The notes beneath the pieces are model-generated. The model ran no database searches. It worked only from the letters and a program-made list of their open reading frames with translations, and was not told the origin of the DNA. A stretch of 64,000 nt of DNA from a virus. The DNA is taken from positions 1 to 64,000 of the IMG/VR virus record IMGVR_UViG_3300013132_005564; one strand, written 5' to 3'. This document shows, in pieces, positions 13,644 to 64,000 of the stretch; the first letter of the stretch is position 1, and the number at the start of each line of letters is the position of its first letter. Made by a program: the position numbers and the translations under genes.

Positions 13644-16600
13644 ATGAATCGTCGTTTATTATTGACCGAGGACATGATGAACCAACAAGTTTTTGAGGAC
13701 GAGGACTACCTCTACAAGTCCCTCAACGGCCAGATCAACGTCGATGAGGCGCAGGGTATCGTTGAGGCCTTCGTCGCCGGCGTCGGCAACAAGGACTCCG
13801 TGGGTGACATCTGTCTGCCGGGGTGCTTCACGTCCTCCCTCAAGCGCAGGAAGCCGCGCGTCGTCTGGGGCCATGACTGGAACTCCCCGATCGGCAAGGT
13901 CCTCGAGATCTACGAGGTCGGGCCGAACGATCCGCGCCTACCGGCAAAGATGCGCAAGGCGGGCATAGGTGGCCTCTACGCGAGGGTGCAGTTCAATCTG
14001 AAGGCGGAGAAGGGCAGGGAGGCTTTCGCCAACGTTTCGTTCTTCGGCATGGAGCAGGAGTGGTCCATCGGTTACAAGACCCTGGACGCGGTGTTCGACC
14101 CGGTTCAGACCGCCAATCTCCTGAAGGAAGTGGAGCTCTACGAGGTGTCGCCGGTTCTGCACGGAGCGAACCAGCTGACGGGGACGATATCGATCAAGGC
14201 CGACGAGGCCGAGACGCAGATCAAGGAAGGGAAGGGTCCTTGCTGGCCTGGATACAAACAAGTCGGCATGAAGAAGGGCAAGCGCGGGGGGATGGTCCCC
14301 AACTGCGTGCCCGTCGATGGCAAATCGCTCGAGGACGAGTGTTGCCCTGAAGAAAAAGCGGCCGACAAACCGGCCCTGCGTGATCCCAAGGGCGGACTCA
14401 CGGCGGCCGGTCGGGCCCACTTCAAGCGCACCGAGGGTGCGAATCTGAAACCGGGCGTCAGGGGCGCGGCCGACACGCCGGAGAAAATGCGCAGGAAGGG
14501 TTCGTTCCTCACCCGCTTCTTCACCAACCCGAGTGGTCCGATGAAGAAGCCGAACGGAAAACCCACGAGACTCGCCCTTTCGGCGGCGGCGTGGGGGGAG
14601 CCGGTGCCGCAGAACGCGTCGGACGCATCCGCGTTGGCGGCGAAGGGTCGTCGTCTGCTGGAGAGATACGAGAACTCAAAGAAGAAGAAGAAGGACGACG
14701 AGGATTCGATCGAGAACAAGAACCACGTCGCGGCGATCTACGCGGCCGCGAGCGCCCCGCAAAACGAGACGTTCGGGAGGGCATCGCAGCTGACCAGGGC
14801 GTTGGCCGCGAGGTTCGGCGGCCCGGTGAGGTTGGTGACGGCGGACAACGACATAGCGATCTTCGAGATGGGCGCGGGTCAGTCGACGGAGACGATGAGG
14901 GTCGCCTACCACTACGACGGGGATGAGTTCATGATCGGCACGGCTCAGCAGGTGAAGCCAGAGACCGTCTACATCCCGATAAACCAGACGACTTCCGGGC
15001 AGACCGTAGGCGGAGTCACCGCCGGCATATCCGCGCAGCACGGGCACCACGCCGGACACCAGGGTCATTGCTGCCCTGGGTGCGGACACGGTGGGAGTTG
15101 CGACGCTTCCGTCGCCCTCTCGCCGGGCGATGACCCGAGGATTGCGTTCGTAAAACTCAAGTCCCTGGGCGACCAGCTGAATTTCAAGGTGGTCCCGACC
15201 GACGGGGGATTCATACTGGAGGGGTTCGGCCTCCTCAACGAGGAATCCCAGGATTTCGTGGCGAAGAAGGTCGCCGAGGACATGGAGAAAAAGTTCCTGA
15301 ATCCGATCGGGAACGTTTCCCGAAGGAGCCTTGGCGTCCCCGACATCAGAGGATTCGTCCGTGGTTTCAACGTGGACATGAACCCGCTCACCGCGAGGGA
15401 CGCCGACCTCGACAGGCTGGTCCTGGAGGGCAACCCGCTCATCAACATGGGCCGCGGCATCCCCGACCCCACGCCTTTCGGTTCGGCCAACAGACCGTCT
15501 TTTGATCTGCCCGCCGCACGCGGGGACTTGGATCTCGGCGCCCCGAGGATGATGCCCGCCGTGCCCGACGTGCCGCGAAGGGAACCCGAGGAGGTCCCCG
15601 AGCCCGTCAAGCCAAAGGCGCCGCCGGTCAGGCCTCCGCGCAGGGAGCCGTCAAGGCCCGAGAGGGAACCGACAAAGCCGCCAGTCCCCGTCCCGACGAG
15701 ACCCGAGAGGGAACCGGCAAGGCCGAACACCCCGGTTCCGGTTCCGGTTCCGGTGCCAACGAGACCCAGGGAACCGGTCCCGATCGGCGAGGCGAGCAAC
15801 GACAATTTCGCCATAGCGGCCATGGGCGGCGGAAAGCGCACGCCCAAGCAGATAGCCGAGGCGCTGGCGAGCGTCGATTCCGAAAAACGCGAGAGCAGGC
15901 AATCAAGGATGATCCGTCTGCGCGACAGCGGGTTCGACGAGATGCGACGCCTCATGCTCCTCGACGGACCGGATGCCGGAATGGCCGATCCGAACAGGAA
16001 CGGACGCCGTGGACGCGCCGTGCGAATCGATTCTGACGAAACGCTCGAGGAAGTTCTCAGGAGAAGAAGAAGCGGACAAGACATCTCGGACATGACGGAG
16101 GACATTGACCTGCCGAATCCTGGAGACCGTTCCCTCACGGACCCAACCCCTGGGGATGCAGGAATGGCGGGTCGCCCTAGAACGAGGGAGGAAAGCGCTG
16201 ATCTTGGGAGAAAGATCTGGTTGGCAAGGACTCACGACAGGCTTTCGTTGGAGGAGGCTGGCCGTCGCCACGGAGTCTCAAGAGAGGAGGCCCGTCAACT
16301 TGAGCTGAGGCACCAGAAGTACCTGCGAGATCTCGGTGTCGACCATCCGAACAGGGTTGGCAGAGCGACGATCGACGACGCAAACAGTGGTCTGACCGAC
16401 GCCGAGGCCGACCTTCTCCGCAGGCGCCTTGACGGCGAGATGCTCGAGGAGGCCGCCGAGCGACTTGGCACAGACAGGTTTGCCGTGAGAAGGATGGAAC
16501 AGCTTGCTCTCGCAAAACTCAGGAACAGAATAGTGCAAGGTGACGCCGACGCTGGCATGGCCAGGGGCGATGGAGGCAGGGCGGTAGAAGCCGACCGCCC

Positions 16601-19600
16601 AAAAGCGTCACGGGTCGCAAGACCCGAAAGCCCGGGAAAGCGAAGAATAAATAAGGTTGACCCGACCTTCAGCCAGATCTACGAGTCGCTGAGGGATTCC
16701 GGCCCGGACGGGCTCACCGCACCCCAGAGATTGCGCGTGGCGGCGATGATCCGTCTGCGTGACTCCATCAACAACAAGATAACGGCGATGCGGGTCGCCG
16801 GATCCAGGAGGCGCACGTCCCATCTTGGACCGGAAATACAGGAGCTAAACGACGGGATCAAGGGGGCGCGGGAGACGGCCGCCGAGGTCGCCAGAGTCGT
16901 CGTCGGATCAAAAGACGACTTCCTCAATTCCGCCATAAAAACCGCCAACTCAAAACAGGACGACGACCTCGACGCGTCGCTCAATTTCAGGTCGTTCGAC
17001 GCCCTGTCGGACGCCGGCGGAGACGTCGCCAAGGCGTCGCGAATCCTCGGCATGGACGGGGATGTTGTGCTTCTTCGGGCGGCGGCGCACTCAATGAGGC
17101 TGGCCGCCTCCGCTGGACCGGCAAGGCGGCGCATCGCGAGACTCTCCGAGAAACTCAGGCACAAGCTCACCTCTGCAGAGTCCGTCACGCTGAGGATGTG
17201 GATCAACGGAGCCTCGGACTCAGACATAATCGACAGGTTCCCGGCGTTTGCCGACGAGAGGGCCGTCGTCGCCCAGAGGATAAACGCGTTGAGGAAAATA
17301 GGAATAGATCCGACCTCGCCCGAGATGCTGTCCGAGGTCAAGTCCGGAAGGATCTTCTACGACGAGTTCGGTCTCTTCGCCGAGTTGGTGGACGACGCAG
17401 GGCAAACGACGCTGAACCGCCTGGGGGACGGACCGATGGGCGGAATGAACAAGGGCGTCCGTCGCGTGGTGTCCGCCGATTTCGGCGACGGGAGGCGCGA
17501 CTACGCCGTCACGAGGACGATTTCGCGCGACAGGGCCAGCTACGGAGACGAGCTCGTGATGCTGGTTCCGATCAACGGCGACGACGAAGCGACCGTGTCC
17601 ACGCTCATTGGCAGGGCGCTACTCGGGGGTGACTTGCGGGCCTCCAGCGTGGAGTTCCCCGCCGTGATCCGAAGCTCACGCGGGAGGGTTGTCGGGGTGA
17701 CCGACGCATCGGGGAGGAACGTCCCCCTGTTCGGAGAGAGGTCCATAAACGCCTCCCAAGCCCTGGTGGCGACCGAGTCGGCCGCGGCGGAGGAGAGGGC
17801 GTCCGAGCTGATCAAATCAATACGCGACAACGACTCCGCGTCGAGGATAAAGATGGACCAGGACGTGGAGGTCGCCGGAAGGCGCTCGACCAGCCTGAGG
17901 CTGGCCCTCGATCACCTCCTGCAGACCGGGGATTGGATCGGTGGCGACCTCGGCGTGACCGGCCGCGTGCCGGACAGGGACGTGATGTTCTCGTTCGGAC
18001 TGGACGCCGACGACGACGGGAGCCCGATCGTCCCCAACAACTCAACCCAGGACGAGTTCAACGCGAGGGCGGTCTCCGATTTCCTCAGCGACAAACCGGG
18101 CGCGACCGAAGGGGAGATCGACGACTACCTGTCTCGCGTCAACGCGTCGAGGATCGCGCAGGTCAAGAGAAAGGCCGAACTCGCGGCGAAGGAATCGGAT
18201 CGTCTCCGTCACATCAGGGACTCCGCGGAGGAACGCCGTTTGCAAAGAGTGATCGACCTGGAGACGCTCGACCAGAGAATCGCAGAATCGCTCGCGGAGG
18301 AGACGCGGTTCATCTCGTCGCTGAGCGGGGAACAACTCTCCCAGCTGTCGAGGGGCCAGGGCGGGTTTGCGTATGTCGTCCACAAGGGACCGGACAGGCT
18401 CAAGGACGGAGTCCTCGACCCGAGCAAGTCGGCTGGCGTGGACAGGTCGGTCGCCGAGGTCGCTGGCCAGGGCGACACCCGCGGAGCGAACAGGCAGTAC
18501 ATCCAGCGCTTCGTGCAGTCCTACGACAACAAGAGACAAATGGTCTCCTCCGCCGACGACATGATGGCGAGGATTTCGCGCGGAGAACGACAGCTGACCG
18601 TGGACCAGTCGATAAGAAGGTCGCTGAAGGCCGCGTCCCCGCTGATCGCGAGAATCGCCTCCGACTCGGGTTTCCTCAACCTCGACGAGCTCCCAGAGCA
18701 GAAAATTTCCGAGGTCATCAGGGATTTGACGAGGTTCTCCGAATCCCAGCGGGACGACCTCGCGCGCTACGAGGGGATCATGGGGGCCATACGGCGGTAC
18801 GGCGGCACGAACGCCGACCAGCTCCTGTCGGCGGAGGCCGACCCGATCTCGGCCCTGAGCTCACTGAACTTCTATGGCAGGTACGCCGACGCCGACCTGC
18901 CGCGTGACGTCGTGCAGTTTGAGGATGGTTTCGTTGACAACCTGACGAGGAGGTGGAATCCGACCGACGAGGAAATGCTGGAACGCTGGAACGGGTTGGG
19001 CGGAATCCGCGGCGGTGCGTTCGTGGTCCACGGCAAGAGGGATTCCCAGATAGTCAGCGGAGGCCTGCTCGGTCCAACGTCGGAGGCCCAGATAATTTCG
19101 CCACTGAAGCCGTTGGTCGGGTTCTCCACCCCCGTGAGATTGTACGGACAACGGCAGGACGACGACCCGGAGTCCCTAATCCCGATGCTCGGCCCGGCGC
19201 TCGCCGCGAGGGCGATAAAGATGCACAAGAGGGACGGCGAGATAGACATCGAGAGACTGCTCATCGACCCGGACCTAGCTCCAGACGGCTTCGTCGGTTA
19301 CCCCGACGGCGCCTCCGCCGGAATGGCTTCCGCGGACACGACGGACGACGAGTCCCGGACGTACTCGGACTATCGGAATTCGTTGACGCCCCGAGGAAAA
19401 TTGTTCGACGCGCGACTGAGCGGCCTACTACGGGAAGACGTCAATTTCGATCAAATGATCTTCAACGAGGACGACGCGAATTTCTTCAGAAAAACTTACT
19501 CGGAATTAGTTGAGGACAGAAAGAATCCCAGCGAAGCGGACATCTTGAGGCTCGAGGCGCTGATCGACCGCGCCGAGGCCTTCTATCTCCCGTTCCGTCG

Positions 19601-22600
19601 CTCGACGATGCCACACGAGCTCGAGGCCTCCGGGGCGACGGTGCTGGACATCATGGACGCCCCCGACGACGGTTCGCTCAACGAAAAAATAACGGGTTCG
19701 ACGAAGTTCGTGGCCCCGAGGGAGATTGAGTCGTTGCGAGGGAACAGGAGGTTGCGCGAGCAACTCGTCGGAGTGCCGTTCTTGAATCGGACGCCCGTGT
19801 CCTTTCATTCCTCCCCCACGGGCACCGTCCCCTACATTGCGGTCAGGATAGGCAGAAAGACTTCGGACCTTGACGGCGACACTGAGTTCCACCCAGCATC
19901 CGTGATGAGGTACGTTGCGCTCACGGGGGACGGTCCGGTCAACTGGAATCACCCAAGCATGGCGCAGCCCAACAGGGCCAACGACTGGACGCCCGAGATG
20001 CTCGGGAAGCCTTTCCGCCTGCCCGACGCCGAGGCGGACTTTCATTTGTCCAGGAGGCGGACGATGGACAGGAACCTCTCGCACGTCGGCGACTCGCCCC
20101 AGAAGGTGGTGCTCGGGCTGCGCAGGAGGTACGGACTCCTGAACCCCGACATAGAACAAAACAGACTCTGGTACGACACCGGCGGGTGGCTGGTGAGTCT
20201 CGGGGCGTCTGGGAGTGAACGATTTGCCAAGCAGGGTGCGGCGCTGCCGGGTCGCGAATTCCTCACCGTGACGGAGATGACCCAGCCGAGGCAGCTGGAA
20301 GAGCTGGTGAAAAAGGCAAACGAGGCGGGGAAACCCCTCCTCCTCGAGGTGATGCAGGACATTCGCCCGATTGGAAACAACCTGCGTTCCGAGAAAATTA
20401 TGGACGACATCAGGATGGCGCGCCCCCATCCGAAGACCCTTGACCACGAATACCATCCGCTGATGATTTCGAAACCGAGAATCATCAGGGGTTACGGAAA
20501 CGGCTGGCCGTCCAGTGACGACTTCCAGCCCGACGAAGAAGGTCCAGCCTTCGTCGCCGGCCGGGATGCGCTGACAGGCAGGGAGATTCGCGTCCCACTG
20601 AGACAGGTTCTGATGAGCCACTCACCACCGTCCCGCGAGAGGGGGGAGTTCGATGCGATCGCCTTCGGTCGTTTCGGTTTCTCGACAGAATCGGGACCGA
20701 TGGTGACAGACCGGGCAACCGAGGCCGACTCCGTCAGCGCCGGGATGTCGGGGGACGACCGGTGGAAACCGACGCCAAGCTACGGTGAAGGCAGGCGGCC
20801 AAAGTTCATATACACCGTCGTCGACGCCGTGCTCGGGGACGACAACAGACTTGATCAGTACGGGGTCGTCCGGATCGACGCGGCCTATGTTGCCGCCGGT
20901 CGTATTCCTACGAGGTACATGCTGGACACTATCTACGCGTTGCAGAGCCTGGACGCATCGATCGGTGCGCCGTACGACCACGGGTACCACTTCCTCAGGT
21001 TCGTGTACCCGAGCTCCGGGCCGACAGAAGGACTCAAGAGCGACGCGGTCAGGATGATACTCGATCCCACCATCGTCTTCGGACGGTGGAACCCTGACGA
21101 GAAGCGACTCTACATCCTTGCGCGAGAACCAGACATGTCGGGGGATTGGAACGTCGCGCTGTATCCCCTCGACGATTTTCCCACGGGACCCAACAAATAC
21201 GACTGGACTCGCCGAGAACTGATAGAGCACCCAGACGTGACAAGCGGAACTCTGTCAACGTACGTTCTCGGCAGGGAAATGGGCCCTGACGGCAAGTGGC
21301 GCCAGAGGGTTTTCAACACGAGCCGGATGAAAGCGGACACTGGCCCGATGGACGAGGTTTTCCCGATCGGACCGTTGAGCGTCCCGGACCGCGTCGCTAC
21401 CTGGAGCGACGGGCCGACGCCCGAGACGGAGCCGTCCGACGCTCCGAGAATCAAACCAACGGACCCCGCACCGTCAACCGAACCGCGGACGCCGAGGAAG
21501 CGACCCGCCGCGCCCTCTTTCTCCGGGGCAAAGGACGTCCCGACCGAAACCGACGACACGGTCATCGAGGACATGGAGGCTCCGCGACCGGAGGCTTTCG
21601 TTGGCGACGAGCCGACCACAATGCCCGTTGATCCCAAGAAGGTCAAGGAGGCGGAGATCGTCGACAAAACAAAAACCCCGCTGCCCACGGCCCGCGACGT
21701 GGCGATAGGCCTTGCGGCCAACGATCCCGTCGTGATCGAGGCGCGAAGGAACGACGAGGCCAAGTGGTGGCAGAAGCTCAAGCAGAAATTGCTGAGGACA
21801 AAAATACTCAAGACCTGGAACCCCGAGACCAACGAAATCAAGGACGAGAACGACAACGCTGTGCTCAACCCAGTCACGGGCAGGAAGCAGTACCGATTGC
21901 CGTTCAGGGCGGCGTGGAAGCCGTGGGGCAACCCGATCGCCGCAGACGGAACCGAGAGCGACGAGCTCGGGTTCAAGGGCTCGATGGACCTCGCCGGAGG
22001 GTGGCGGGACATTTTCAAAATCATGTCGCGCAAGCGTCTTGCGTTCGTCGACATAGAGACGACCGGAATAGTGGACGACAGGACCGGTGGTCCAGTGCAG
22101 ATCGCCGTCCACGTCGTGGAGCCGGGCGGGGACTGGAACAACCCGAAAATAATCAACGTCTACATTCGACCAGAAGAGGAACTCTCGGACTGGGCCAGGG
22201 ACAACCTGAAAGTCAAGATCGGCGACAAGACAATCCCGATACAGGAGGCGCTGGCTTCGCACCCCGAGATCTTCGTGTCAAAGGAGGAGGCGCGCAAAAT
22301 TTTGGCGGAAGCGGTCGGCAACGACTCCGTGATCATATCGCACAACTGGCGCTCGTTCGACTCGCGGGTATGGAACGACGTGATGGGCGACCATCCCACC
22401 GAGGGATGGGTGGACACCCTTGCGCTGGCCAATTGGTTGTTCGCCGTGGACAAGGAGAGGTTCGGCGTCATGGCCAAACAGCTGAAGGAAGCCCTCGGTG
22501 CTGCCGGCGACTCCAAGGTTGCCCGCAACGCGGCCTACGACCGCCTGTCGACACCTTTCGTCGCATGGCTCAAGAAGGCCGTGAAGATTGACAAGCCGGG

Positions 22601-25600
22601 TGGCAAGTCGTGGGGCAAGAGGTTCCAGGAGAGGATACACGCGATCGACAGGCTTTACCGTTTCGCCACCGGACCGCTGTGGTACAAGGAGAGGTTGTCC
22701 GTAAACGGCAACTGGTGGCCGGATCCGTATGCCTCGACCAAGAACGAGGCGCTCGCCCTGTACTTCGGTCACCCCATCCTCAAGGCTCACGACGCAAACG
22801 CCGACATAGAGGCGACGCGCAGGAACCTGCTCGCCATGATAGAGCTCGGCGACAAGTGGGGCGCGGCGAGGTTCATGTTCGACAGGGACTCAAATGACCT
22901 GCTCGTCAGCAAGGAGGACGAAACGTGGGCGCTGAACTACAGTGCCTGGAAGCAAGCCCATCAGGGGATCGGTGCCCCCACCGAGAACTTGTTCGCTCCG
23001 AGGGACACCAGTGCGCCGGGCGACGCGCCGTCACCATCGGACGGAACCCGTCGTCCGGACGCCCCGGGTGGATCACCGGACGAACCGACAACCCCGAGCG
23101 AACCCTCAGCCCCCGGCGGGGGAGACAGGCCACCGGGCGGTCCTAGACCGCCCAGACCACCGGGGGCGACTCCGCGCGGCCCGACACCGGACCCGGACAG
23201 GGTGCCGAGCGGCTCCTATGGGAACGGCGTCCGGATCTACAAGGGGATCGGCGGAAAGTACGTGGAGATGAACTCGATTGCCCCGGCCACCGACGCGGAA
23301 ACGGCAGCTTTTTTTGTGGCGAACTTGTTCGTTGCCCGCCAGGACGGCATAGGTTTCCAGTTCACATACGGAGTCGCTCCAGACGGAACCCCGAGGACGT
23401 ACAGGCTCCTGTCGATCGAGGTTGTCCCCAAGCCCGGTTTGACACCGGAGGAGGCGAGGAGGGCAGGCATCGGTGGGTTCGTGATCCTCGGGTTGGACGC
23501 CGCCGACGGAAGACAAAAGACGTTCGACTTTGATTTGGTCAACCTCAGGGACAGGGCCTTCACGTCGGAACCCGGATTCACGAAAGTGCCTTTGCCGACC
23601 GACGTGTACGGGGGGAAGGATGAGATGAGCCTCACCAAGGACCAGTACGTCGATCTCTCCAGAAGACGCAGGTTCAACAACGACAACCGGACGACGGACG
23701 GACCCATGGCCGGTATGTCTGGTCTGACGAACAGGGACGGGTACTCCGATTCTCCGTCCTACTGGAGAGTGACCGAGCAGGACGTGGAGGCGGACCGCCT
23801 GAGCGACGCAGGTCTCGCGGAAAGACTCAGGTCCGACAAGGTGAGACTGGAGAATCTCATAAACCTCGGCCCGTCGGGCAACTCAGACGCGTCCAGCGTC
23901 CTCGACTCGATAGCGGCGACGCAGAGGGTGATGAGGATCAGATCCAACCAGGGCCCCGACCACAACGGAATATCCGTGACCAAGGCCGACTCCGACTACT
24001 CGCTCTCGGGCGACTTCGTCGGGGCCCCGGGCACCCTCGGTTCCACATATTCACTGCCGGCGAACCCGACCGAGCTGAGGCGCGAGCTCAGAAGGAACGC
24101 CGATCTATCCGTGAACCTAAACATGGCGCTGCTGTCGGACGGGCCGGGCAGGGCGCTGGACAGGCTCGCACGCATCTCGAGAATTCCGAGGGGGGAGATC
24201 GTCGCCCGACTGACCTCGCACGACTACGGAACGTACGCAGATGCGGCTTCCGAAAGGATATTCATGTCCGTGGCGGACGGTGTTCGTCGGGGCGAGAACA
24301 CCCCGTCATCTCTCGGGTTGCTGGTCGATCCAGCACTCGATCTCCAGCCCGCCTCCGCAGCCGTCGTCGCCTCGTCGCGGGCGATGGGCCTCAACGTTCA
24401 CGGAACTCCAGAGATGATGGTCGGAGATAGGGACAGATACGGAGCGGTGGAGCTGATTGATCTGCTGGCCGATTTCAACGAGACCGTCGGGGACCTCTTC
24501 TCGCTGGCGTCCACAAGCAACGAGACGGACCCACGGTTCAGGGTCAGGTCCAGGGTGATGAGAGGGAAACTTGCAGAGATCGCAAGGGAGGTCGGCAACC
24601 GTCACCATCGCTCGCTGGGCGCAGGCACCGATTCGTTGCAGGCGGGCGCGCAGGCCGGCATGGGCAACCCGGACCCCGACCTGCGCCGCTTGATGAGCGA
24701 GTTCGTGCGAATGGCCCCCTCCATGAATTTCGAGTCCGTCACGGACGCAGGGTTCGACGAGGATTGGAAGCGTCTCTCCGACCAGGTAATCGACGACTTC
24801 GTACGGCGGCCGGGCCGGGGAACGGAGCAGGCGTTCTCCTCGTTCGGCGATGCGCTGAAAGGCAGGGCGAGCGTTGTCGGTCGGACGATCGACCGAATAA
24901 TCGACCCGAGCAAAGCCCCCATCCCGGCGAATTCCCCATTGGGACGCGAGGTGGTCAAGTCCACCGCGAAGATCCTCGCACTCATCTACGACCTGAGGTT
25001 CGGATCGACGGACATGCTCGGACTTCTGGCTTCCACGCCAGGGGCGGGCCCGGGCTCCGGAACCAGCGGGCTGGACGTTACCTACAAGATGATTGATTCC
25101 GGCGCCGCCGCGCTGTTCGCCAGGGGCGGCCGAAAGGCGCTGGTCGCGTATCTGGTGGAGGCCGTGAGCCTTGGTCTGGTGCCTGCCGGCAGGGCCATGG
25201 GGATTCTTGACAGGCTGTCCCCCTCCCCCGGGACCGCGGCGATATCCTCGGGAGCCGAGGCAGCCATGGGTCGGTCGGGCGGTTCCTCGCCGTTCGGCGA
25301 CGCCGACGGAATACCGATACTGAGCGGATCAAAGTGGCTCGACGCGAGGCTGCACGCCATATACGGCTCGGTGGAATACGAGAAAGTTGCCAGAGGCATA
25401 GGCGAGCGTTTCGCCGACCTTGCCTCGCGAGACTGGGACAACCCGACCGACGACGATCTCGTTGACATCCATCATTACTCGCAGATGGTTCAACACGACG
25501 ATTTGATAGAGCGCTTCACCATGACGGGTGGCGGCGCCGCCCCGAGAGGGGGAACGACCGACACTTTTTACGCTGGGCGGAGCGGCTTGGACGTCACCAT

Positions 25601-26756: not shown

Positions 26757-26793
26757 CTAATGTCAACTTGCACTTCCTTCATTGGTAGTGCTC

Positions 26794-26799
26794 TACAAT
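26794..26799 (+). promoter_or_regulatory. Candidate -10 element before the tandem-repeat protein
   Basis: TACAAT in the 53-base gap after the 4370-residue protein; a TTGCAC (26768-26773) lies 20 bases upstream, longer than the usual spacer. Weak evidence. Confidence 0.2.
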
Positions 26800-26809
26800 G
26801 GGAGGCGCC

Positions 26810-28603: not shown

Positions 28604-28615
28604 ACGAGCGAGTCA

Positions 28616-28819
28616 ATGAACGGCAGACCAAGCGGCGGGTACACCCGCGGGAACCGTGTTATGGGTTATGATAAACCTACACAAAATAACGCAGTCAAAT
28701 TGAAATATCACTGCATTGCGACGGGCGAGAAACGCCAGTTTCCGTGCGGCAGTTGCGTCAACCACAAGGGTTGCCTGGCGACGACGATGCAATACAAGGA
28801 GCGAAAACATGGAACCTGA
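28616..28819 (+). CDS. Small Cys-rich protein (zinc-ribbon-like)
   Basis: A 67-residue open frame ending at TGA 28817-28819, overlapping the start of the next gene by 11 bases. The C-terminal half reads KYHCIATGEKRQFPCGSCVN then HKGCLATTMQYKERK, giving Cys residues in a C-x11-C-x2-C-x5-C layout that could bind zinc. The ribosome site is weak (GAGCGAG), and an internal ATG at 28661 is possible. The coding potential is moderate because the 5' half is unremarkable. It may serve to couple translation of the acidic protein that follows. Confidence 0.5.
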   Translation: MNGRPSGGYTRGNRVMGYDKPTQNNAVKLKYHCIATGEKRQFPCGSCVNHKGCLATTMQYKERKHGT

Positions 28820-30821: not shown

Positions 30822-30832
30822 GGGGGATCGAG

Positions 30833-36124: not shown

Positions 36125-36312
36125 ACCAGAACAACAAACGAGACGACATGCCGATCCTGAGGGTCGTCGACTCCGACTCCAAGCTGGAATCCATCGGGGT
36201 GGCCCTGGCGGCGGCGGCGACCGAGGAAGCGGAGTCGCTGGCCGAAGCGCAGGAGGAATGGGACGAGATGGTCAGGACAAGGAGCGGAACCGCCGTGCGT
36301 GCCAGTAGCTAA
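36121..36312 (+). CDS. Small acidic helical protein, 63 residues
   Basis: ATG at 36121 overlaps the stop of the 1763-residue protein (ATGA), with GGAGGGAG eight bases upstream. The middle is a long Ala/Glu helix (IGVALAAAATEEAESLAEAQ). No family is recognised. The coupling suggests it is made in step with the upstream protein. A chaperone or scaffold peptide is possible. Confidence 0.62.
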   Translation: MNQNNKRDDMPILRVVDSDSKLESIGVALAAAATEEAESLAEAQEEWDEMVRTRSGTAVRASS

Positions 36313-50808: not shown

Positions 50809-51373
50809 CCAAACTCACAACAAGGCCGACCCGCTCGGCGGGATAGTTCCACAGGAGCTCGTCACCGGGGACATCATGCGCGGGTACGGTCCGCGGCGAG
50901 GAAACCTGGAGCGCTTGCTTCGCTACTGGCGTCCGATAATGAAAAAGCCGGGCGGGTTCCGCAGGTGCAGGGTCATCCTCGCGGATCATCCGGAGCTTTA
51001 CCCCCTGAACAACATATGCGCATGGCTGCACCACGAGACGACCGGACTGTGGCCCAACGAGGGCTGCCACCACCCCGGCATGAAAAACTGCAGGAGGAAG
51101 ATGCGCGGCGTCGTGAACGGCTCGCTTTGGAGCGATGCCGATTTTGACGACCGCATCAGGAAGCTGACCAGCAGGGCGGCGAAGAAGAAGGACCTCAGGT
51201 CAAGCGGAGGCATAGACGCAGCGCCCCCGTACGAACCGTTCGTGCCCGTCATCACCGACGACGACTGGGACCACGCCTGGAAGGTAATGGACGACTTCGT
51301 GAAGATGGAGACCAAGTTCGTCGCATTCGTTTGCGACGACAACAACTGGGAGATGTTTGATTCGGATGTCTGA
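50798..51373 (+). CDS. Hypothetical protein with His/Cys-rich segment
   Basis: A 191-residue protein starting with GTG 50798 (GGAG ten bases upstream), overlapping the previous gene by 11 bases. Residues 40-105 read RLLRYWRPIMKKPGGFRRCR, HPELYPLNNICAWLHHETTG then LWPNEGCHHPGMKNCRRKM. Similar R-Y-W-x-G-x-x-x-RC...C-x-x-x-H-x-x-x-TG segments occur in phage head-region proteins of Actinobacteria. The Cys and His residues could bind a metal. The C-terminal 50 residues are acidic. Function is unknown. Confidence 0.75.
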   Translation: MQSNQTHNKADPLGGIVPQELVTGDIMRGYGPRRGNLERLLRYWRPIMKKPGGFRRCRVILADHPELYPLNNICAWLHHETTGLWPNEGCHHPGMKNCRRKMRGVVNGSLWSDADFDDRIRKLTSRAAKKKDLRSSGGIDAAPPYEPFVPVITDDDWDHAWKVMDDFVKMETKFVAFVCDDNNWEMFDSDV

Positions 51374-53456
51374 GGCGACGGAAACGATCGAGTGCTGCCC
51401 GAAATCCGGCGTGGTGGTGAGGACGGTGCTCCCGTCCACGGCCATTTCCAGGAACAACGTCTCGGCGCTCCCCCTGTCCGTGACCACGAGCAAGCAGAAC
51501 GCCGTCGAATTCAAATGCATACAGATGGCGAAATTCGGGCCAGAGGCGATAAGGGAGGGGTCCGAAGTTCGTTTCAAGGTTGGCCTGGTCGGGAGTCAAA
51601 CCGTTGTGGGCCGGGCGACGCAGGCGTTGGCCTCGGCGCTCACGCCGGGAAACATGTCCGTCGTCAGGAATCCCGGTAGGTCCGCCCTATGGTCAGCCGC
51701 CACGCCTGGCGGCGGGTCGGCACTGAGCGGCGTGGCGAATCCGCTGGCCAGGGCAGCCGCGGCGTCGGTGCCCAAGCCGGAGAGGGGTTTCAGGTGCCCG
51801 GAGGGGTTTCAGTTCGGTGGGCAGTTCACCGACAAGTATTTCTCCACGTGCGGGAAGAAGCTCTTCGCCCTCGCCTTGTCCCTACTGACTCGGGGCAGGA
51901 ACATCGAGGATCTCGTCGGAACCCGTTTGCCGCGACCGATAAGGGTATCCGGAACATCGGTGGTTCCGAGGGGGGAAATCGGCCAGTTGACTTTCGTCAG
52001 GGACCCGAACATAGAAATACCAAAGGTCGGGAGTCGCAACTTCGGTGCGTACAGGGAGGCGATCAGGAACGTCTCCTCGGAAATGGGCAAGTTTGACGAA
52101 ACGGTTTCTCGGTTGGTCAGGAGGGACGGGGTCGTGTTGACCCCGCTCGTTTCCCCGTCCGTGTTGCGAACCGTGCCAGACAATAGGAACATGGAGGGGG
52201 CGGCTTACGTCTCCTACGTGAAGAAGCCGCAGCAGATAGGGGGCAAAGAGCTCGGCATGTTTTCCAACAGCGGAATTGATGCGTTGGTGTACGTGCTCCC
52301 GAACGGCGGAACTCTGACGCTGAGAAAGACGAGGAACCTGAGCAACGGCGAGAGACGCAAACTCGGAAAACTCGTCGCACACGCCGAGGGAATGACCAAC
52401 TCCAACGACCCGGCGGCCCGCATAGAGCACATAGCGTCGGAGATGGACGGACCCGTCTCCTACGAGCAGGCTTTCGGGGACCTCAAATCCCCGAACGACA
52501 TGGTCACCGTGTCCGACCCGAAAACCAAGAAGCAGCGACAGGTCAGACGCTGGTACAGGGACTCATTCATGCTTGACGCACGCTCGAGTCAGGTCGGCTC
52601 CCGCGAGACGCAGATCGAGGACGAGGCCGGGATGATCGACGACCTGCGGTCGGCGATATCTCTCGTCAACGGCGGCGGGCAGATCGGCAACGTCTCCCCC
52701 GAACTCAGAATTCCAGCTCTAGAGATGAGCAGGTTCGCCGAGACCCGGAGGGTCAACAACAGGACGACGACCTACAAGCTCGGCAGGGATTCCATCAGCG
52801 CCATTTCGCCGTCACTGACGCACGAACACCTCGGCGTGATGACCGCAGCGGAGGTCCAGTCCCAGCTCGGCGCCCTAGCTCCGAGCGTTTGGTTTGCGGG
52901 GTCCGGCATCAGGCGACCGTACTTGATCTCGTACCCGACGGACTCGGACTCCATGGGTCGTCTCGCGAGGAACACGGGGCTGGACCTGGCGGATCCCGAG
53001 GACATGACGCGGCTGATGATCGCCGACCTACTGACCGACGTGATTGACCGGAATCCGTCAAACCTCTACACGGTCGGCGAGTACAGCAACAGGCGGACCT
53101 TCGGCGGTCCTGTCGCTTCGTCCGGCGGGGCGGGCCTGCTGCGCTCTGAGCTGCAGGGGAGGGTGGACCTGTCAAGGATCGCGCTCATGGCCGAGCTAGA
53201 GACTTCAATGTACAGGGAGTTCTTCATGAAGCTGAGGAAGGAGCAGAAGCGTCGCGCGTTGGCGTTGCTCGAGGAGATGCTCCAACGGGCCAGGATGTTC
53301 AGTTTCACGGAGTTCAAGAGAAGAATGTCCATCGACGGGAAGATGAGCGTTGCCGAACGCATCCACATGGACATAGTCGGCGCGATCTTTGATAACAGGT
53401 TGAGCACGCTTGAGGGTTCTTTGAAATTCCTAAGGAACGTGATCAATGGAATCTGA
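51366..53456 (+). CDS. Large hypothetical virion-type protein with RCPxGxxFGGQFTDxxxxxC module
   Basis: About 696 residues. I start at ATG 51366, which overlaps the previous stop; an upstream TTG (51357) adds three residues. At about residue 140 it has GFRCPEGFQFGGQFTDKYFS then TCGKKLF, a Cys module also seen in shorter form in the 3764-residue protein. A central region carries MEGAAYVSYVKKPQQIGG and LVYVLPNGGTLTLRKTRNLS. The C-terminus is helical and charged (MKLRKEQKRRALALLEEMLQ). An EDEAGMIDD sequence near base 52632 resembles the AGM linker but is not at an obvious domain edge. It has no DxDxD module. Probably a virion protein of the same set; no enzyme motif is found. Confidence 0.78.
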   Translation: MSEATETIECCPKSGVVVRTVLPSTAISRNNVSALPLSVTTSKQNAVEFKCIQMAKFGPEAIREGSEVRFKVGLVGSQTVVGRATQALASALTPGNMSVVRNPGRSALWSAATPGGGSALSGVANPLARAAAASVPKPERGFRCPEGFQFGGQFTDKYFSTCGKKLFALALSLLTRGRNIEDLVGTRLPRPIRVSGTSVVPRGEIGQLTFVRDPNIEIPKVGSRNFGAYREAIRNVSSEMGKFDETVSRLVRRDGVVLTPLVSPSVLRTVPDNRNMEGAAYVSYVKKPQQIGGKELGMFSNSGIDALVYVLPNGGTLTLRKTRNLSNGERRKLGKLVAHAEGMTNSNDPAARIEHIASEMDGPVSYEQAFGDLKSPNDMVTVSDPKTKKQRQVRRWYRDSFMLDARSSQVGSRETQIEDEAGMIDDLRSAISLVNGGGQIGNVSPELRIPALEMSRFAETRRVNNRTTTYKLGRDSISAISPSLTHEHLGVMTAAEVQSQLGALAPSVWFAGSGIRRPYLISYPTDSDSMGRLARNTGLDLADPEDMTRLMIADLLTDVIDRNPSNLYTVGEYSNRRTFGGPVASSGGAGLLRSELQGRVDLSRIALMAELETSMYREFFMKLRKEQKRRALALLEEMLQRARMFSFTEFKRRMSIDGKMSVAERIHMDIVGAIFDNRLSTLEGSLKFLRNVINGI

Positions 53457-56400
53457 CTCAACCTTCTCCAAGGTCGTTGACTCGGAAACCGGGACGACCT
53501 TCGCCGTGCTCGTGGCGTCGTCTGACGGGATTACGGCTCACGGTTCCATGAAACAGGGGGTGGAGTGGGCGACGTGGGTGAACAGGGGCGAGAAGTCAAT
53601 GGCCCGGATCGTTCGCTCGCTGGACCCCTCGCTGGAGATCACCAAGTTCGTCCCACTCAACGAGGAGAACATTCTCCTGAAGTCGTCGTCCTTCGGCACC
53701 ACGACCGCAAAGGAGCTGAGGGTGCATCTCGAGAGAAAATCGCTGGGCGAGGACCTGACGAAGGCCGCGGATCCCACCAACCCGCCCCAAAAAACGAACC
53801 CCGAGGGGGTGGATGAGCACCAGCCGGAACCGGAGTACGAGTCGCTCAGTTCCTGGATGATGTCGGACGTGGCGGTCAGCGAGTTTGACGTGCAGATAAA
53901 GCAGACGGCCGTGCACTTCAAGGCAATGCAGTTCATGCGAAACAGGAGGTTCTCGTCTTTCCTGTTGTCGGTTAAACAGACGAACGCGTCGCTCGTGAAC
54001 GGTAGTTGGGCGACGCGCCCGTCCCTCGCCCCCGCCATGGGCGACGTGCTCAATTCGTACGACCGAAAGACGAAGTTGCACGCCTCGGAGTCGCTCGGGT
54101 TGTCTGGGTACTTCAACAAGGCCTTGCCGATCGGCATGCGACAGCTGCCGCCGCCGCACCTCGTCAGAAACGCAGACAACGACGCCTACATCTACGAGGG
54201 AATCCCGTGGATCAACAGGGGCCGCGGGATACTCGATCCCACACCTGGCAACGCCGCCAGCGCCATCAGGAGTGGGGTCAGGGCCTTCGGCGGGAGAATG
54301 ACCGACATAGTCGACAGGACGAACAGGATTTCAAGACTGACCCGGAACGACGCCGAGAGGATGCGTCGTCTCGATCTGGTGCCGGCATCCAACGACATCG
54401 CCTCGTTGCTGCCGCAGGGCGAGGAAACTAGAGCCGCCATGGGCAGGATGCGCAGGAGACTGGCCAGTCTCGCTGACTCCGTCGCGCCGTCCGAAAGGAC
54501 GAGGGGGGACGGCGAAGAGGTCCTGACGAGAAGGCAGGCGAGGCGCAACGAAGAGGCCCTCGCGAGGGCCGGAATCAACCCCAGCGCAACAAGCTCACCC
54601 GACGAAGAGACCGCATCCGCCGGCATGAGGAAGGTGACCGGCGACGATCCGCAGGTGCCCGAAGTCGTCAATCTTTCCGAGAGAAGAAACGCGCAACCCG
54701 ACACGGAACTGACCGGGCTCGAAGAGACGGAATCCGGCAGGGTCGAGAGAGGCGCAAAACCCAGGTCCGACGGCAACGGGATGCTGAAGAACCTCCTGTC
54801 GAGACTCTCGAGGGGGTCAAAGCGAATCAATTCAGCAGATTCGCCCAACCCGCCAGAACTGGATGAGAGCGACGATTTGCCCGACTACGACGGTCCGCAG
54901 GTCGTGAAAGTATCCGATGATCCATGGCAAATGGATCCGGCGACGAGGGACATGCTTTTGGCGGCACTGAAGGACGCCGTTCCGGCGGGGACGTACGCCA
55001 CCTTCAGCTCGAGATTCGGGGAGGACGACCTGGACTGGCCCAATTTTTCGCCATCCGAGCAGTCGTCGCTGTTGCGCGAGCTGGGGTACCGCCGCGACGA
55101 ATTGCTCGACATCGTAACGGAGCTGATGACTCCCGAGTTTTCGGCAGACAAGGACTACAGAAGCGACGGGGTCGTCACCCCGGAATCGGTCATTGAGGCG
55201 ATCCGGAATGACTTCGTGTCGTTGAGGTCGGGCGGAGTGAACCTGTACGCCGACGTGATGGCGCTCGTGGCGATCAACGACATCCTCTCCTCGAAGGACC
55301 ACGAAACAGAGGCAAGGGCGTCCGCATGGAGGATGATTGACAACAGGAACAGGAGCGTCGTGTCCAGGAGGGCGGACATTCAGCGCAGGGACGTGAGGGA
55401 GGCGAGCTCCAGCAGAATTTCTGGGCCGGTCGGAGAAAGGACCGTGATCTCACAAACGGGGGGTCGGGGGTCCGACTCTTCGGTCCGCCGGGTCGCCCTC
55501 AGCAAGCTGAACCCGAGGGTTCTGGTCCTTGCCACGGTTCCCGTCGCCCCCGGCAGGTTGCTGAGCGACTACTCGGACGAAGAAAGGGCCGCGCTGCTCT
55601 CCAGCGCGACGCAGATGAGGGCTTCGATAGCCGAGCACCTCGCGAGGAAGATGGGTCTGCCGAGCGACACAGAACTATCCGAGGACGTCATAGCGAACTG
55701 GATGGCCAACAACTCGGACACGGACGGGTCAAAAATAGGCGTGTTCGCCCACAACCTCATCGTCCTCGACGATCTCGCAATCGCAGTCAATTCTGGCAAG
55801 CCGGGGAACGACGAATGGAACGCCCTGACCATGCCCGCGAGAGACAAGATAATCAGCAACGCAAACGTCGGATCGCGACCCGAGGTCGCAAAGACCAACC
55901 AAAGCCAGCGACGCCGCGGGCGGCCGACGAAATCGCCGGCTCCGCCACTTCCGCCGACCCCGCCAAACCAGACACCGCCGCAAACACCGGCAGGTCGCAC
56001 GCGCCCGCAGATCGGAATGACTCCGCCGAAGAACCGGATCGCCGACTGGCAAGACCCAACGCAGCCGGTCCCGGAAACGGTGGACGCCTCAACGCAGATG
56101 GTCACGATCGCCGGCGAGGACGGAGCGGAGAAGCAGGTCTTGCTCAGCTCCCTCGGCAGGCCGAACCAGTATGACTTCTCCAACACCGTTTCGGTCAAGG
56201 GGATTTCGTACGTAATGGAGAACCAGACCGGCCTGTACAGGGACCCGGTGACCGGGTTGTTCCTCGACGACTACAGCGGCATCCCGATAACCCTCGGCAA
56301 AACGGTCCCCCGGCCCAGGGAACTGGAACAGGTGAACCAGAAGAGGGGCGCACCGACGGTCAGCTACCCATCCATCCAATTGTCCGAAAAAAACAGCCAA

Positions 56401-60265: not shown

Positions 60266-60282
60266 CATCAGCCCATCCGGGT

Positions 60283-60309
60283 TTGAAGTATTCTTGTCGG
60301 TACTATAAG
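60283..60309 (+). promoter_or_regulatory. Candidate promoter before the last large gene
   Basis: TTGAAG (60283-60288) and TATAAG (60304-60309) with a 15-base spacer, in the 75-base gap. The short spacer makes this tentative. Confidence 0.3.
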
Positions 60310-60340
60310 CGCGTTTCGGCGACGACCAGAACGGAAGACG

Positions 60341-63300
60341 ATGGACGAATCAATTCAGCCTGGGGATTGCTGTCCGTTGTCTGACGATGACATAGAAACA
60401 AAGGACGTCTCGTTCGGTCCGCGAATGGTGAGGCCGGACAGTTTTGATGCATACGTTGACAAGGAATCAGCCAGGGCCAGGGCGAGGATGCTCGGTTGCA
60501 TCGGCATCAGGCAATACGGTTCAACCAATGGCGGGACGGTGTGGATGCCGTGCAGCAACGAGTCCGACTACAGACGGGTGACGGGCACCAACTTCTCGGG
60601 TCGCAGGCAGAGGCGAAGAATGCTGAAGGCCGAGCTGGGAGAAGGCATCTCGAAGAAGGCGCTCGGTGCGACCATAGGCATGGTTGGCGGAAGAGTCAAC
60701 ACGAACCCGGCAACGGCCATAGACGCCGACCTTGACGGATTGGTTCTGGAGGGTCTGCCATTCATCAATCTCGGTAGGGGCGTGCCGGACCCGACGCCTG
60801 GCGGCACAAACGAGCTGTTGCCGAACGCAGACAACAGGAATTTCGCCATGGCGGCAATGTCGAATCGCAGGGGGCCGAGGATCTCGCCCCCCGGCGAAAT
60901 TGAGCTTTCCAGGGATGGCGACGACTCCGCTTCGCCCGCGACGAGGATGCCCAGCCAGAGGGCAACGCGCTCCAGAAAGAGGGAGACGACTTTCGCCGAT
61001 GTGGACACAGACAGGTTTGACGAACTGATAGCGAGGATTGCGGACGACGTTGCGAGTTCAGAGGTGGCCGCGGATGTCTCCTCGGACGAAGCTGTCGGCA
61101 AGTTGCTTGACGACGTCAGGGGCATCGCATCTTCGGTGGCGGAGGTTGTTGACGGGCACATTGACTCCCGTCCCCGAAGGAGCACGTCGACAAGGGACGC
61201 GGCCGAGGAGACCTCAACGCGAATCACGGCGAAGGCCATTGGGACCGTGATGGAGATCTCCAACAACCCGACGCAGTCGCTATCGGAAAACGAGAATCTC
61301 ACGAGGCTCGTGACCTCATCCATAATCGAGCGTGGCGCCGCGGAAGTGGCGTCGTTGACCGGGAAACCTGGGATATGGGCATTCCTGGTGCAGGCGATGA
61401 TCGGCGGCGCCTACGCCACCCAGAGGGCCTGGGAGTTGCTTGCCAGAATTTTCGGCGTGGAGAACAACACCGGTTGGGTTCCAGAACCGACAGGCAGGTT
61501 CGCCGAGGCGCTCGCCCCCAGCCTCGCAAACGAGCGGAAGAAAGCCGCCAGAAGTCGAGCCCTTGACTCCTCCGGGAGGGCCATTGACGCACTGCGCCAG
61601 GCTGGATTCGCGATATCGGACGCATCCGAGGTTCCGGCGATAGCGGACGACATGGCCTCGGCGCTGGATTCCCCGGAGCTGATTGAGTTGCCGGGCGACA
61701 AGAAACCCGGGCCGGCGCCGACGCTTGACGCTCTCGACGAAATAATCCAGAGGATCAACGCGACGACCGGCAAGACCAGGCCGCGGGGCGCGCGCAAGCC
61801 CTCGTACTCCAAGTACAGGGGGACGAGCGAGGAAATACTTCGAAACAGGATGGACATAGCGGGCGTGCCGAGCGGCATAGACGATGTGTACCGCACCAAC
61901 TCGGTTGACGTCCCGACGGACAACGAGCGACTGGCAGCCAAGCTGATCTCTACGCCGGGACGAAATGGCCAAGGCGCGCTCAACGCGGAACTTCTCTACA
62001 GGGCGCTCTCGGACAGATCGGCCCTCAGGTCGTACGTGTCGCCCGTTGATTCACCCTTCGTGGCGCAACTCGCGACGCTGATAGAGGAGGGGAGGCTGCC
62101 ACGTCTCGCCGACGCCCTGCTGGAAATGTCGCCGCAGACGGTGGAAAATTTCCTGGCCGTTCCGCCGCGACCAATCATCTCTGCGGCGAGGGCCGCGCGC
62201 AAGACTCTTCGCCCGTCCGGGTCGTGGATGGCGAGAATATCCAACGACCCCTTTGAGACCGCCTTCCACATGTTGAGGGCCAAGGACTACCACCTTTCTT
62301 CCATATTCTCCGGCGCCGACAGCGGAAAGCTCACGGATGCCGTAGACGAGCTGGTCGGCAACAACGTATCCGAGACGGCAGCGATATTCGGGTCCTTGGT
62401 CGCCTTGAACAAGGAAAGGCTCGCGGAGGCGTACGACGGATCGCAGAGCGTCGCCCAAGGCGGCAACCGCCTGCTCAGGACCGCGAGGAACCTGATCGCG
62501 TCGGCCACCGAGAACGACAGCGTGTGGGCGGCGACCCGGGACTCAATCTCCGACGTCACTGCGGCGATGCTCGGCGGGGACTCCGCCGATGCGGCGATGT
62601 CCCGGCAGGTGGTCAGGTTCGGGAGCAACTACCCGAGGCACAGGAGGAAGACGGGGGACTGGTCGCCGATCGCCAACAAGATAAGAGACGGGGTCAAGGC
62701 CTACAGGGCAAGGTACGGTCCGATTGCGTCAAACTCCGCGGATCTCAGTCGCTTCGTGAATTTTTCCTACCCCGAGCTCTTGAGCGAGGCCTCCGAACTG
62801 ATCGATTTGATGAAGGAGAAGGTCGAGTTCGGGTCCCTAAAGTTCGAGGACTACGCGCGCAACGGGTGGATAAACCGGGACACGGCGGAGCTCGACGTTG
62901 ACGAGTTTGACCCGACGAACCTGGAGACGATCTTCGACAAGGGTTCGCAGATGGGTCTCTTCAAGTCGATCGGCGTGGTCCTCGTGGCTGCGTCAAGGGT
63001 GGCCCCGTCGCGCGACGAGAGGGAGGCCGTCCTCGACCTGATGGATGAGGTCAACGAATGGACGTTCACCGCCCTGCCCCTCTACTCGGAGCCGCGGTCG
63101 GTGACCGACAGGCGCCGCGGGATATTCCCGTCGTCCGCATCGGCCGACGCAGGAATGACCGTCAACAGGCCCGTGCCCGACGACGTCCGGCAAACACTGA
63201 TGTCCCTCACTCGCCCGTACGACTCAGGACAGACGCAGGGTCTGCCGACGATCAGGATGCAGAGGAAGCTCGTCGAGAAGGCCAATGAGCTCATGAGGAA

Positions 63301-64000
63301 CGACCTACCGGACGACCTTGCGCAGAGAATGGCCGCGAGCCCGAACGGGCCGACGATAGACATCTCCGAGCTGTTCCTCGGCACGGCGGAACAATTCCGC
63401 TGGGACCAGGCGACGATCGCCTCGTTCTACGAGGAAGTGGCCGAGATGATGAACAGGATGGTCCAGGAGGTGCCCGATGCGAAGAGGCGCCAGAAACTTG
63501 CGGACATGTTCACTGGGGCGCTCGAGGACATAGCCGACAACATGGACAACGAGAACACCGAGTTCTTCGACAGGGTCGGGGACATCCCTTCACGAACGGT
63601 CGGACGACTCTCGCGGAGGGCGTCCAGGTCTCAGGTCGCCGAGGATACGGCAGACGCCGGAATGACGGTGAACAGGGGCGTGCCGGAGGACGTGCGCGAG
63701 ACGCTGATGAGTCGCCAGAGCCCGCTCGGGTCGGGAGAAAAACTCGGGCTGCCAGAGCGCAGAATTTCTCGGAAGCTTACCGAGGTTGCCAACGACATTT
63801 TTGCGGCGGATCGCATTGCGAACGACTCGCCGCTGCCATCCCCCGGCATCGCCGAAGTGTTCTTCAACACGGCAGGTCAACTGAGGTGGGACCGACCGAC
63901 GACCGAGTCCTTCTTTGAGGACGTTCGGCGCATGATGAACCAAATGGTCTCGGAGATCCCGGATTCGACGCGCAGGAACAGGCTGGCGGACGTCTTCTCC
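60341..64000 (+). CDS. Polyvalent-type protein, N-terminal 1220 residues (runs off the right edge)
   Basis: Open from ATG 60341 to the window end with no stop. Order: CCPLSD...; ARARARMLGCIGIRQYGSTN with VWMPCSNESDYRRV (Cys module, about residues 45-80); KALGATIGMVGGRVN; DADLDGLVLEGLPFINLGRG then VPDPTPGG (about 130-155); NFAMAAMSNRR (AAM, Met 173); a long helical region; and two copies of a 169-residue repeat starting at AGM Met 939 and 1108. Copies open DAGMTVNRPVPDDVRQTLMS and DAGMTVNRGVPEDVRETLMS. The second copy is cut by the window edge. No enzyme motif is seen. Its layout repeats that of the 1763-residue protein (module, AAM, AGM). Confidence 0.83.
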   Translation, partial: MDESIQPGDCCPLSDDDIETKDVSFGPRMVRPDSFDAYVDKESARARARMLGCIGIRQYGSTNGGTVWMPCSNESDYRRVTGTNFSGRRQRRRMLKAELGEGISKKALGATIGMVGGRVNTNPATAIDADLDGLVLEGLPFINLGRGVPDPTPGGTNELLPNADNRNFAMAAMSNRRGPRISPPGEIELSRDGDDSASPATRMPSQRATRSRKRETTFADVDTDRFDELIARIADDVASSEVAADVSSDEAVGKLLDDVRGIASSVAEVVDGHIDSRPRRSTSTRDAAEETSTRITAKAIGTVMEISNNPTQSLSENENLTRLVTSSIIERGAAEVASLTGKPGIWAFLVQAMIGGAYATQRAWELLARIFGVENNTGWVPEPTGRFAEALAPSLANERKKAARSRALDSSGRAIDALRQAGFAISDASEVPAIADDMASALDSPELIELPGDKKPGPAPTLDALDEIIQRINATTGKTRPRGARKPSYSKYRGTSEEILRNRMDIAGVPSGIDDVYRTNSVDVPTDNERLAAKLISTPGRNGQGALNAELLYRALSDRSALRSYVSPVDSPFVAQLATLIEEGRLPRLADALLEMSPQTVENFLAVPPRPIISAARAARKTLRPSGSWMARISNDPFETAFHMLRAKDYHLSSIFSGADSGKLTDAVDELVGNNVSETAAIFGSLVALNKERLAEAYDGSQSVAQGGNRLLRTARNLIASATENDSVWAATRDSISDVTAAMLGGDSADAAMSRQVVRFGSNYPRHRRKTGDWSPIANKIRDGVKAYRARYGPIASNSADLSRFVNFSYPELLSEASELIDLMKEKVEFGSLKFEDYARNGWINRDTAELDVDEFDPTNLETIFDKGSQMGLFKSIGVVLVAASRVAPSRDEREAVLDLMDEVNEWTFTALPLYSEPRSVTDRRRGIFPSSASADAGMTVNRPVPDDVRQTLMSLTRPYDSGQTQGLPTIRMQRKLVEKANELMRNDLPDDLAQRMAASPNGPTIDISELFLGTAEQFRWDQATIASFYEEVAEMMNRMVQEVPDAKRRQKLADMFTGALEDIADNMDNENTEFFDRVGDIPSRTVGRLSRRASRSQVAEDTADAGMTVNRGVPEDVRETLMSRQSPLGSGEKLGLPERRISRKLTEVANDIFAADRIANDSPLPSPGIAEVFFNTAGQLRWDRPTTESFFEDVRRMMNQMVSEIPDSTRRNRLADVFS
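63146..64000 (+). repeat. Tandem 169-residue protein repeat starting with AGM
   Basis: Period 507 bases (Met codons at 63155 and 63662). Conserved parts: T-V-N-R-x-V-P-x-D-V-R-x-T-L-M-S, GLPxxRxxRKLxExAN, IxELF/VFF-x-TAxQxRWD and MMNxMVxEVP/IP. The bases differ at many positions, so this is an older duplication than the ones in the acidic protein. Confidence 0.82.

Follow-up and report, generated by a model that had tools for sequence, protein, structure and literature searches.

Phage head maturation by a prohead protease is of the same type in phiKZ, T4 and SPN3US, and in HK97 the protease cuts the delta domain of the capsid protein. The SPN3US protease, gp245, cuts at A-X-E followed by Ser (PMC10052503). 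Polyvalent proteins are very large multidomain proteins of phages and conjugative elements; the sections of Iyer et al. (2017, PMC5512222) drawn on here describe 2-15 domains per protein and assemblin-like peptidases that are 'always' C-terminal, propose that domains are released by embedded peptidases, compare this with RNA-virus polyproteins, and give no cleavage motif. The very large cargo proteins of crAss-like phages are stored in the capsid and ejected; words that start with proteoly- or cleav- are absent from the text of that report (PMC10172136), which hence describes no cleavage site for this cargo. Here we analyse the first 64 kb (the window) of an 84,498-base IMG/VR virus contig, IMGVR_UViG_3300013132_005564, from an uncultured, lake-type phage (G000). 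Its giant proteins carry a recurrent short motif centred on Met, and we propose that they are probably virion-cargo polyproteins cut at these repeated linker sites by a phage-encoded protease.

A recurrent motif in the giant proteins

The large plus-strand open reading frames (ORFs) encode, in order, proteins of 4370, 601, 701, 1763, 3781, 917, 699, 1827, 365 and 5330 amino acids (aa). The giant ORFs sit between the portal-MuF gene and the major head protein gene, i.e. among the virion structural genes (Table 1). AGM occurs 32 times in the plus-strand proteins versus 5.1 times in composition shuffles (maximum 12, 200 shuffles), and AGM[AGS] 25 times versus 1.3 (maximum 5); in the same proteins AGL, AGI and AGV were at chance level. 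An earlier sequence-only reading of the window had listed 22 AGM and seven AAM Met codons as candidate cleavage sites. All 29 are present and in frame, but that list is short by at least 10 sites, either overlooked (GGM at 17445, AGM at 38229 and 52632, AAM at 62597) or beyond the window (aa 1234, 1435, 2079, 2683, 3351, 4374, 4550, 4704 and 5011 of the 5330-aa protein), and its AAM at 54439 is weak as a site, being absent in three of four relatives and TASM in one. As read from these proteins, the motif is wider than AGM: small residue-small residue-Met-small residue, with a lineage-specific residue three positions ahead of the Met (M-3).

The consensus is conserved as protein and changes by lineage

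Relatives were found in IMG/VR by scans with the S78 protease region and with the conserved 699-aa protein; for phages from the latter scan, the analysis covered all or most of the sequence. In the S78-region scan, close relatives (L011-L013) share the motif and the more distant L021/G006 and L022 have GGMRS instead. At dispersed sites, the consensus is [DSN]AGM in the window phage, EAGM[SA] in G035, G031 and G033, PTASM in G036, GL[TS]GAM in G038, VxGxM[AGS] in G037, RGLxS in G040 and RxG[FLM][AS]S in G024; another is G(M/L)RS (GMRS in G006). Observed versus expected counts were 28 versus 0.49 for EAGM in G035, 7 versus 0.01 for PTASM in G036, 10 versus 0.18 for LxGAM in G038, 10 versus 0.16 for GMRS in G006 and 8 versus 0.24 for GFSS in G024. 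AGM counts in L055 and L060 were set aside, as they come from a low-complexity Gly-Met tract within one protein. All motif copies within each lineage have changed together, as would be expected if they were cut by a protease that the phage itself encodes. At most sites per genome M-3 is D, S or N in G000, chiefly E in G035 and G033, and T, usually with a preceding Pro, in G036 (M-3 residue by genome, genome-wide chi-square p 4e-31; this and the other p-values are indicative, the sequences and the breakpoints described below not being independent).

We then aligned the 5.3k-aa protein of G000, G035, G031, G033 and G036 (44-55% identity to the G000 copy). Over ten orthologous junctions, pairwise identity averaged 0.92 at M-2 (Ala), 0.96 at the Met and 0.51 at M+1, and just 0.19-0.32 over linker residues M-3 to M-9. 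Comparison of homologues, the check that the sequence-only reading had suggested, thus finds the motif kept and the flanking linker not kept, with genome-wide co-variation by lineage, and supports cleavage sites. Codons at the sites are as diverse as genome-wide usage, which places selection at the level of the protein rather than of DNA copying; gene conversion and DNA-level repeats were rejected on the same grounds. These results also bear on inert linkers, in which the motif would be a remnant of module shuffling with no recognised function. Homology breakpoints do coincide with sites, as shuffling would have it, but Ala and Met are kept where the remaining linker is not, the consensuses change in concert, and codons this diverse mean that the likeness of the copies is maintained neither by DNA homology nor by gene conversion; we now regard this earlier alternative as unlikely.

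That one lineage signature recurs at non-homologous places within a genome, written in varied codons, indicates a recogniser of the protein that acts in trans, and a protease fits best. A recogniser that does not cut would also suffice for the concerted change: the motifs could be short linear binding sites for a partner, such as a capsid protein or a packaging protein by which each module is held. The EF-hand-like elements described below likewise change by lineage with no obvious cut, and the S78 protease does not co-vary with the consensus. However, the motifs lie at module boundaries within disordered linkers, proteases are encoded at the same loci, and small-small-Met-small seems more like a protease site than a binding peptide. 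Uncut binding sites are accordingly rather improbable in our judgement.

Internal translation starts, yielding separate module proteins from one ORF, were the other earlier alternative, and Met followed by Ala/Ser/Gly is indeed a common start context. Yet the Shine-Dalgarno energy at the sites is -3.34 kcal/mol, versus -3.80 after synonymous recoding (96% of shuffles stronger), -3.68 at other internal ATGs and an average of -5.27 at real starts. Moreover, the GTG/TTG equivalents (AGV, AGL) are at chance, residues ahead of the Met are kept as amino acids with varied codons, and G024 and G040 carry Phe or Leu at the Met position. The Shine-Dalgarno tests and the Phe/Leu lineages effectively exclude this explanation.

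Sites coincide with module boundaries

When giant proteins are aligned locally, the alignments begin and end at sites, with 40 of 197 breakpoints no more than 10 aa from a site Met versus 5.6% expected. One G000/G001 block stops 4 aa past Met780 and the next begins 6 aa ahead of it; the module between sites 765 and 892 in L011 is exactly missing from L012; and blocks in L114, 93-96% identical, begin at AGMGRTYETL and GGDAEAGMSR. The G006 counterpart of the 5330-aa protein has 564 aa and keeps only the conserved N- and C-terminal parts with one GMRS between, suggesting that cargo enters between the two conserved ends.

Distinct domains across the giant ORFs are S78, DUF6321, sigma-r4, a helix-turn-helix (HTH) array, KTSC-like, NUDIX, Zeta_toxin and a weak RNase_H-like match; Pfam searches of single modules mostly gave no match. 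The C-terminal module of the 5330-aa protein (contig 75374-76330) is a Zeta_toxin-like kinase (PF06414, 7.8e-21), with the NUDIX domain in the preceding stretch. An AlphaFold model of aa 768-1299 of giant protein 1 (four sequences, mean confidence 54) has a helical HTH bundle at residues 80-198, mostly with a predicted local distance difference test score (pLDDT) of 70-83, and all four sites in the segment (residues 13, 74, 205 and 501) in stretches with pLDDT <50; because of its low overall confidence, this result speaks to disorder only. A model of 54118-55350 was of low confidence, with the site at 54625 within a low-confidence stretch. The earlier suggestion that sites bound whole domains is borne out for the HTH bundle bounded by 16164 and 16557, which folds compactly with a disordered linker on either side, and for the 43530-44342 module, which contains the KTSC match.

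A shared N-terminal element usually precedes the first site

Most giant proteins have one copy of an EF-hand-like stretch, mostly shortly ahead of the first site. Its pattern is LGxTIGG...DADxDGxVxEG...PDPTPG or DMIDRDGDGxIxDGTP, and the form differs per lineage: DADLDGLVLEG..(I)N.GRG[VI]PDPTPG in the window, FDP.A.DGDGDGxVQEGTPFERP in G024 and LDPKKRRDVDGDGMIFDGTWREMP in G040. An exception is the 3781-aa protein of G000, where the sole copy found is internal, near 42000. The element is probably a common loading or docking signal.

The first sites after the element (15822, 31094, 60857 and 48047) form a sub-class with hydrophobic M-3 (NFA[IVM]AAM, DGPMAAM), later sites being acidic or polar; possibly the sub-class differs in efficiency or order of cutting. 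A 12-kb contig in a Phycisphaerae metagenome-assembled genome (L171, the single match of one scan of genome contigs) has the same kind of locus, with a FDPDARDADLDMLVQEGTAWERP element and GLASR / GMRS sites. It may hint at the host or be a stray phage contig, and is too weak for naming a host.

Two candidate proteases

The S78 residues His77 and Ser141 are near-invariant among 70 relatives and intact here. The sequence-only reading had taken this prohead protease as the cutting enzyme; the domain is indeed present and intact, but its role is not established, as it does not co-vary with the consensus and the capsid protein has no site. S78 is nearly unchanged across phages with quite different consensuses and in relatives without sites. 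The mismatch between S78 and M-3 preference in G000 and G035 could also reflect recent block exchange, because the terminase-portal-S78 block of G000 and G035 has 92-96% DNA identity whilst the 699-aa and 5.3k cargo genes have ~69-73%.

The second candidate is the 917-aa HExGH protein, which is syntenic in close relatives and falls to 31-51% identity yet keeps HExGH (five orthologues). It had no Pfam match and is assigned as a zincin by motif only. HExxH proteins co-occur with sites and elements, and relatives with S78 but without giant proteins had no sites, no elements and hardly any HExxH proteins; this co-occurrence is only suggestive because zincins are common polyvalent cargo (PMC5512222). 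As candidates for the cutting enzyme, S78 and the zincin stand about even.

Among named phages, S78 domain matches were found in Gordonia, Brevibacterium and other phages, and there was no match to the N-terminus of the 5.3k protein or to the 699-aa protein. Gordonia phage GMA6 has no giant ORF within the stretch examined.

A model for processing

Each precursor would begin with a conserved N-terminal part, usually bearing the EF-hand-like element; the first site would come next, and then folded modules in series, parted by further copies of the site. A phage-encoded protease, present or packaged with the giant proteins, would cut the unstructured linkers, most likely right after the Met (a small residue at P3, any or a small one at P2, Met at P1 and Ala/Ser/Gly at P1'). 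We infer cleavage after Met from G037, where the position ahead of the Met varies freely (A, R, V, K, Q, S) and Gly at M-2 and a small post-Met residue are mostly kept; this gives small-x-Met / small, in the same register as the A-X-E / S of SPN3US gp245. A cut before the Met is the less likely alternative. The modules would be freed either ahead of their delivery into the host or in the course of it. The sites and the specificity of the protease are proposed to co-evolve, which would explain why there is one consensus per lineage and why it differs between lineages.

The giant proteins are probably virion components, judging by their gene position, and the recognisable products (HTH bundle, HTH array, KTSC-like, NUDIX, Zeta_toxin-like kinase) would be in keeping with injected host-takeover cargo. 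The six precursors proposed earlier are retained, but the 25 or more products predicted from them were too few: ~45 would result if every listed site were cut. A more specific possibility, which we hold tentatively, is an RNA-virus-like polyprotein strategy for injected cargo, in which a few giant precursors with a shared loading element would have their modules released by a dedicated, fast-evolving zincin, apart from S78 capsid maturation, with the consensus drifting in concert over 30-45 sites.

Several points weigh against processing as proposed. The lineage consensuses were identified by k-mer search after the fact, those of G040 and G037 are loose, the statistics are subject to the non-independence given above, and motif matches at 54439 and at aa 1234 of the 5.3k protein are not conserved. 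Two features of prohead maturation were not found: a site in the capsid protein (the major capsid protein has no AGM, and NGANM in its N-terminal arm is off the lineage consensus) and a protease that changes in step with the consensus (G000 and G035 do not differ at S78 aa 20-187 despite their different M-3 preference).

Features of the locus

Coordinates are collected in Table 1. Two proteins are repeat-rich and probably disordered, that at 26798-28603 (RPVDRL / PGYDESSNRAE-type repeats) and that at contig 78157-80394; such proteins are enriched in relatives too. PAPS reductase-like and ParB-like genes lie near the terminase (4011-5246 and 5144-5941, minus strand).

Table 1. Genes, elements and motif sites of the locus, in contig coordinates
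Feature	Position	Strand	Remark
Terminase	9799-11112	-	ahead of portal-MuF gene
Portal protein fused to MuF	11367..13586	+	Pfam PF04860 1.4e-50, PF04233 9e-10
Giant protein 1, 4370 aa	13644..26756	+	N-terminal S78 protease, DUF6321, element, then modules parted by sites
Peptidase_S78 prohead protease domain	13746..14201	+	PF04586 7e-11; phrog_80 7e-28
Element of giant protein 1	15396..15479	+	DADLDRLVLEGNPLINMGRGIPDPTPF
First site after element, NFAIAAM-G	15816..15827	+	
Site DGPDAGM-A	15975..15986	+	exact point of module gain/loss in relatives
Site GDAGM-A	16158..16169	+	
Site DADAGM-A	16551..16562	+	DGPSGAM in relatives
Site DGPMGGM-N	17439..17450	+	newly listed
Site DGASAGM-A	19317..19328	+	homology breakpoint
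Site DSVSAGM-S	20739..20750	+	
Site DGPMAGM-S	23709..23720	+	
Site GAQAGM-G	24654..24665	+	
Site SGAEAAM-G	25260..25271	+	kept in G002
Site GGSDAGM-A	25938..25949	+	
Repeat-rich 601-aa protein	26798..28603	+	element at 27098-27208: KALGATIGG...DMIDRDGDGYIYDGTP
Acidic 701-aa protein	28716..30821	+	kept in several giant-bearing lineages
Giant protein with HTH array, 1763 aa	30833..36124	+	
Element of 1763-aa protein, N-terminal	30872..31018	+	KSLGPTIGG...DADLDLVVLEDIETINFGRGVPDPTPG
Site NFAVAAM-S	31088..31099	+	
Site DGADAGM-G	32027..32038	+	
Site DGEAGM-G	33185..33196	+	HTH array left end
Site DGEAGM-S	34103..34114	+	HTH array right end
Giant protein with KTSC-like module, 3781 aa	36330..47675	+	TTG start, uncertain N-terminus
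Site DPMAGM-D	37398..37409	+	
Possible site VDSAGM-P	38223..38234	+	Pro after Met
Site DGADAGM-A	40944..40955	+	
Site DASAGM-A	41466..41477	+	
Site DGPNAGM-A	42057..42068	+	directly 3' of element-like stretch FDADPDGLIYEG
Site DGASAGM-A	43521..43532	+	
Site DGPSAGM-G	44334..44345	+	exact start of 93% identical block in relative L114
Site EGPNAAM-R	45471..45482	+	
Site DAEAGM-S	45507..45518	+	
Site DAEAGM-G	45975..45986	+	start of 96% identical L114 block
917-aa zincin-like protein	47672..50425	+	element, single site and HExGH; candidate processing protease, without clear internal site
Element of zincin protein, N-terminal	47822..47923	+	
Site DSPLAAM-S of zincin protein	48041..48052	+	DGPMAAM / DGPFGSM in orthologues
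HEVGH metal-binding motif	49061..49075	+	in 917-aa protein
699-aa protein	51357..53456	+	kept in giant-bearing phages and in some relatives; EDEAGM at 52632 is a possible site
Giant protein, 1827 aa	53446..58929	+	element at 54154-54255
Element of 1827-aa protein	54154-54255	+	
Weak site ETRAAM-G	54433..54444	+	PTASM in G036, absent in three relatives
Site TASAGM-R	54619..54630	+	
Giant protein, 5330 aa	60341..76333 (window holds to 64000)	+	Zeta_toxin-like C-terminus, NUDIX module
Element of 5330-aa protein, N-terminal	60656..60805	+	
Site NFAMAAM-S	60851..60862	+	
Site SADAAM-S	62591..62602	+	newly listed; orthologous site in all relatives
Site SADAGM-T	63149..63160	+	
Site TADAGM-T	63656..63667	+	
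Major head protein	76665-78011 of contig		after 5330-aa ORF

Comparison with known systems

The S78 protease is of the same family (U35) as that of HK97, with intact His and Ser; unlike in HK97, the capsid protein here has no site of the motif. Two features of prohead maturation are nonetheless present, an assemblin-type protease with intact catalytic residues and many proteins that share one short motif. In SPN3US (PMC10052503) one protease cuts many internal head proteins, several of them more than once, at a P3-x-P1 motif that is short and is followed by a small P1' residue; the giant proteins share a motif of this kind, although cutting here is putative. The SPN3US cuts mostly remove N-terminal propeptides of ordinary proteins, with Glu at P1, whereas here P1 would be Met (or Phe/Leu), the sites part whole modules, the consensus differs between close relatives, and the protease would be an S78 (HK97-type) enzyme or a zincin. 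The crAss-like cargo (PMC10172136) resembles the giant proteins described here in size and in the virion-cargo role proposed for them.

The giant proteins also resemble the polyvalent proteins as described in the sections of PMC5512222 used here. They are likewise very large, encoded among head genes with multiple domains per polypeptide, and combine DNA-binding domains with a zincin-like HExxH hub domain (by motif only). In contrast to that description, S78 is N-terminal here, and one lineage-specific site recurs across six proteins that have an N-terminal element in common. Release of domains from giant cargo proteins of phages has been proposed before, without known sites in those portions of the literature considered here. 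In the present locus each site can be specified to the residue, and the sites differ predictably by lineage and mark module ends; for these reasons the processing hypothesis is directly testable. The sites delimit dozens of unknown phage modules exactly, and would offer a natural example of joint evolution between a single recogniser and some 30-45 sites.

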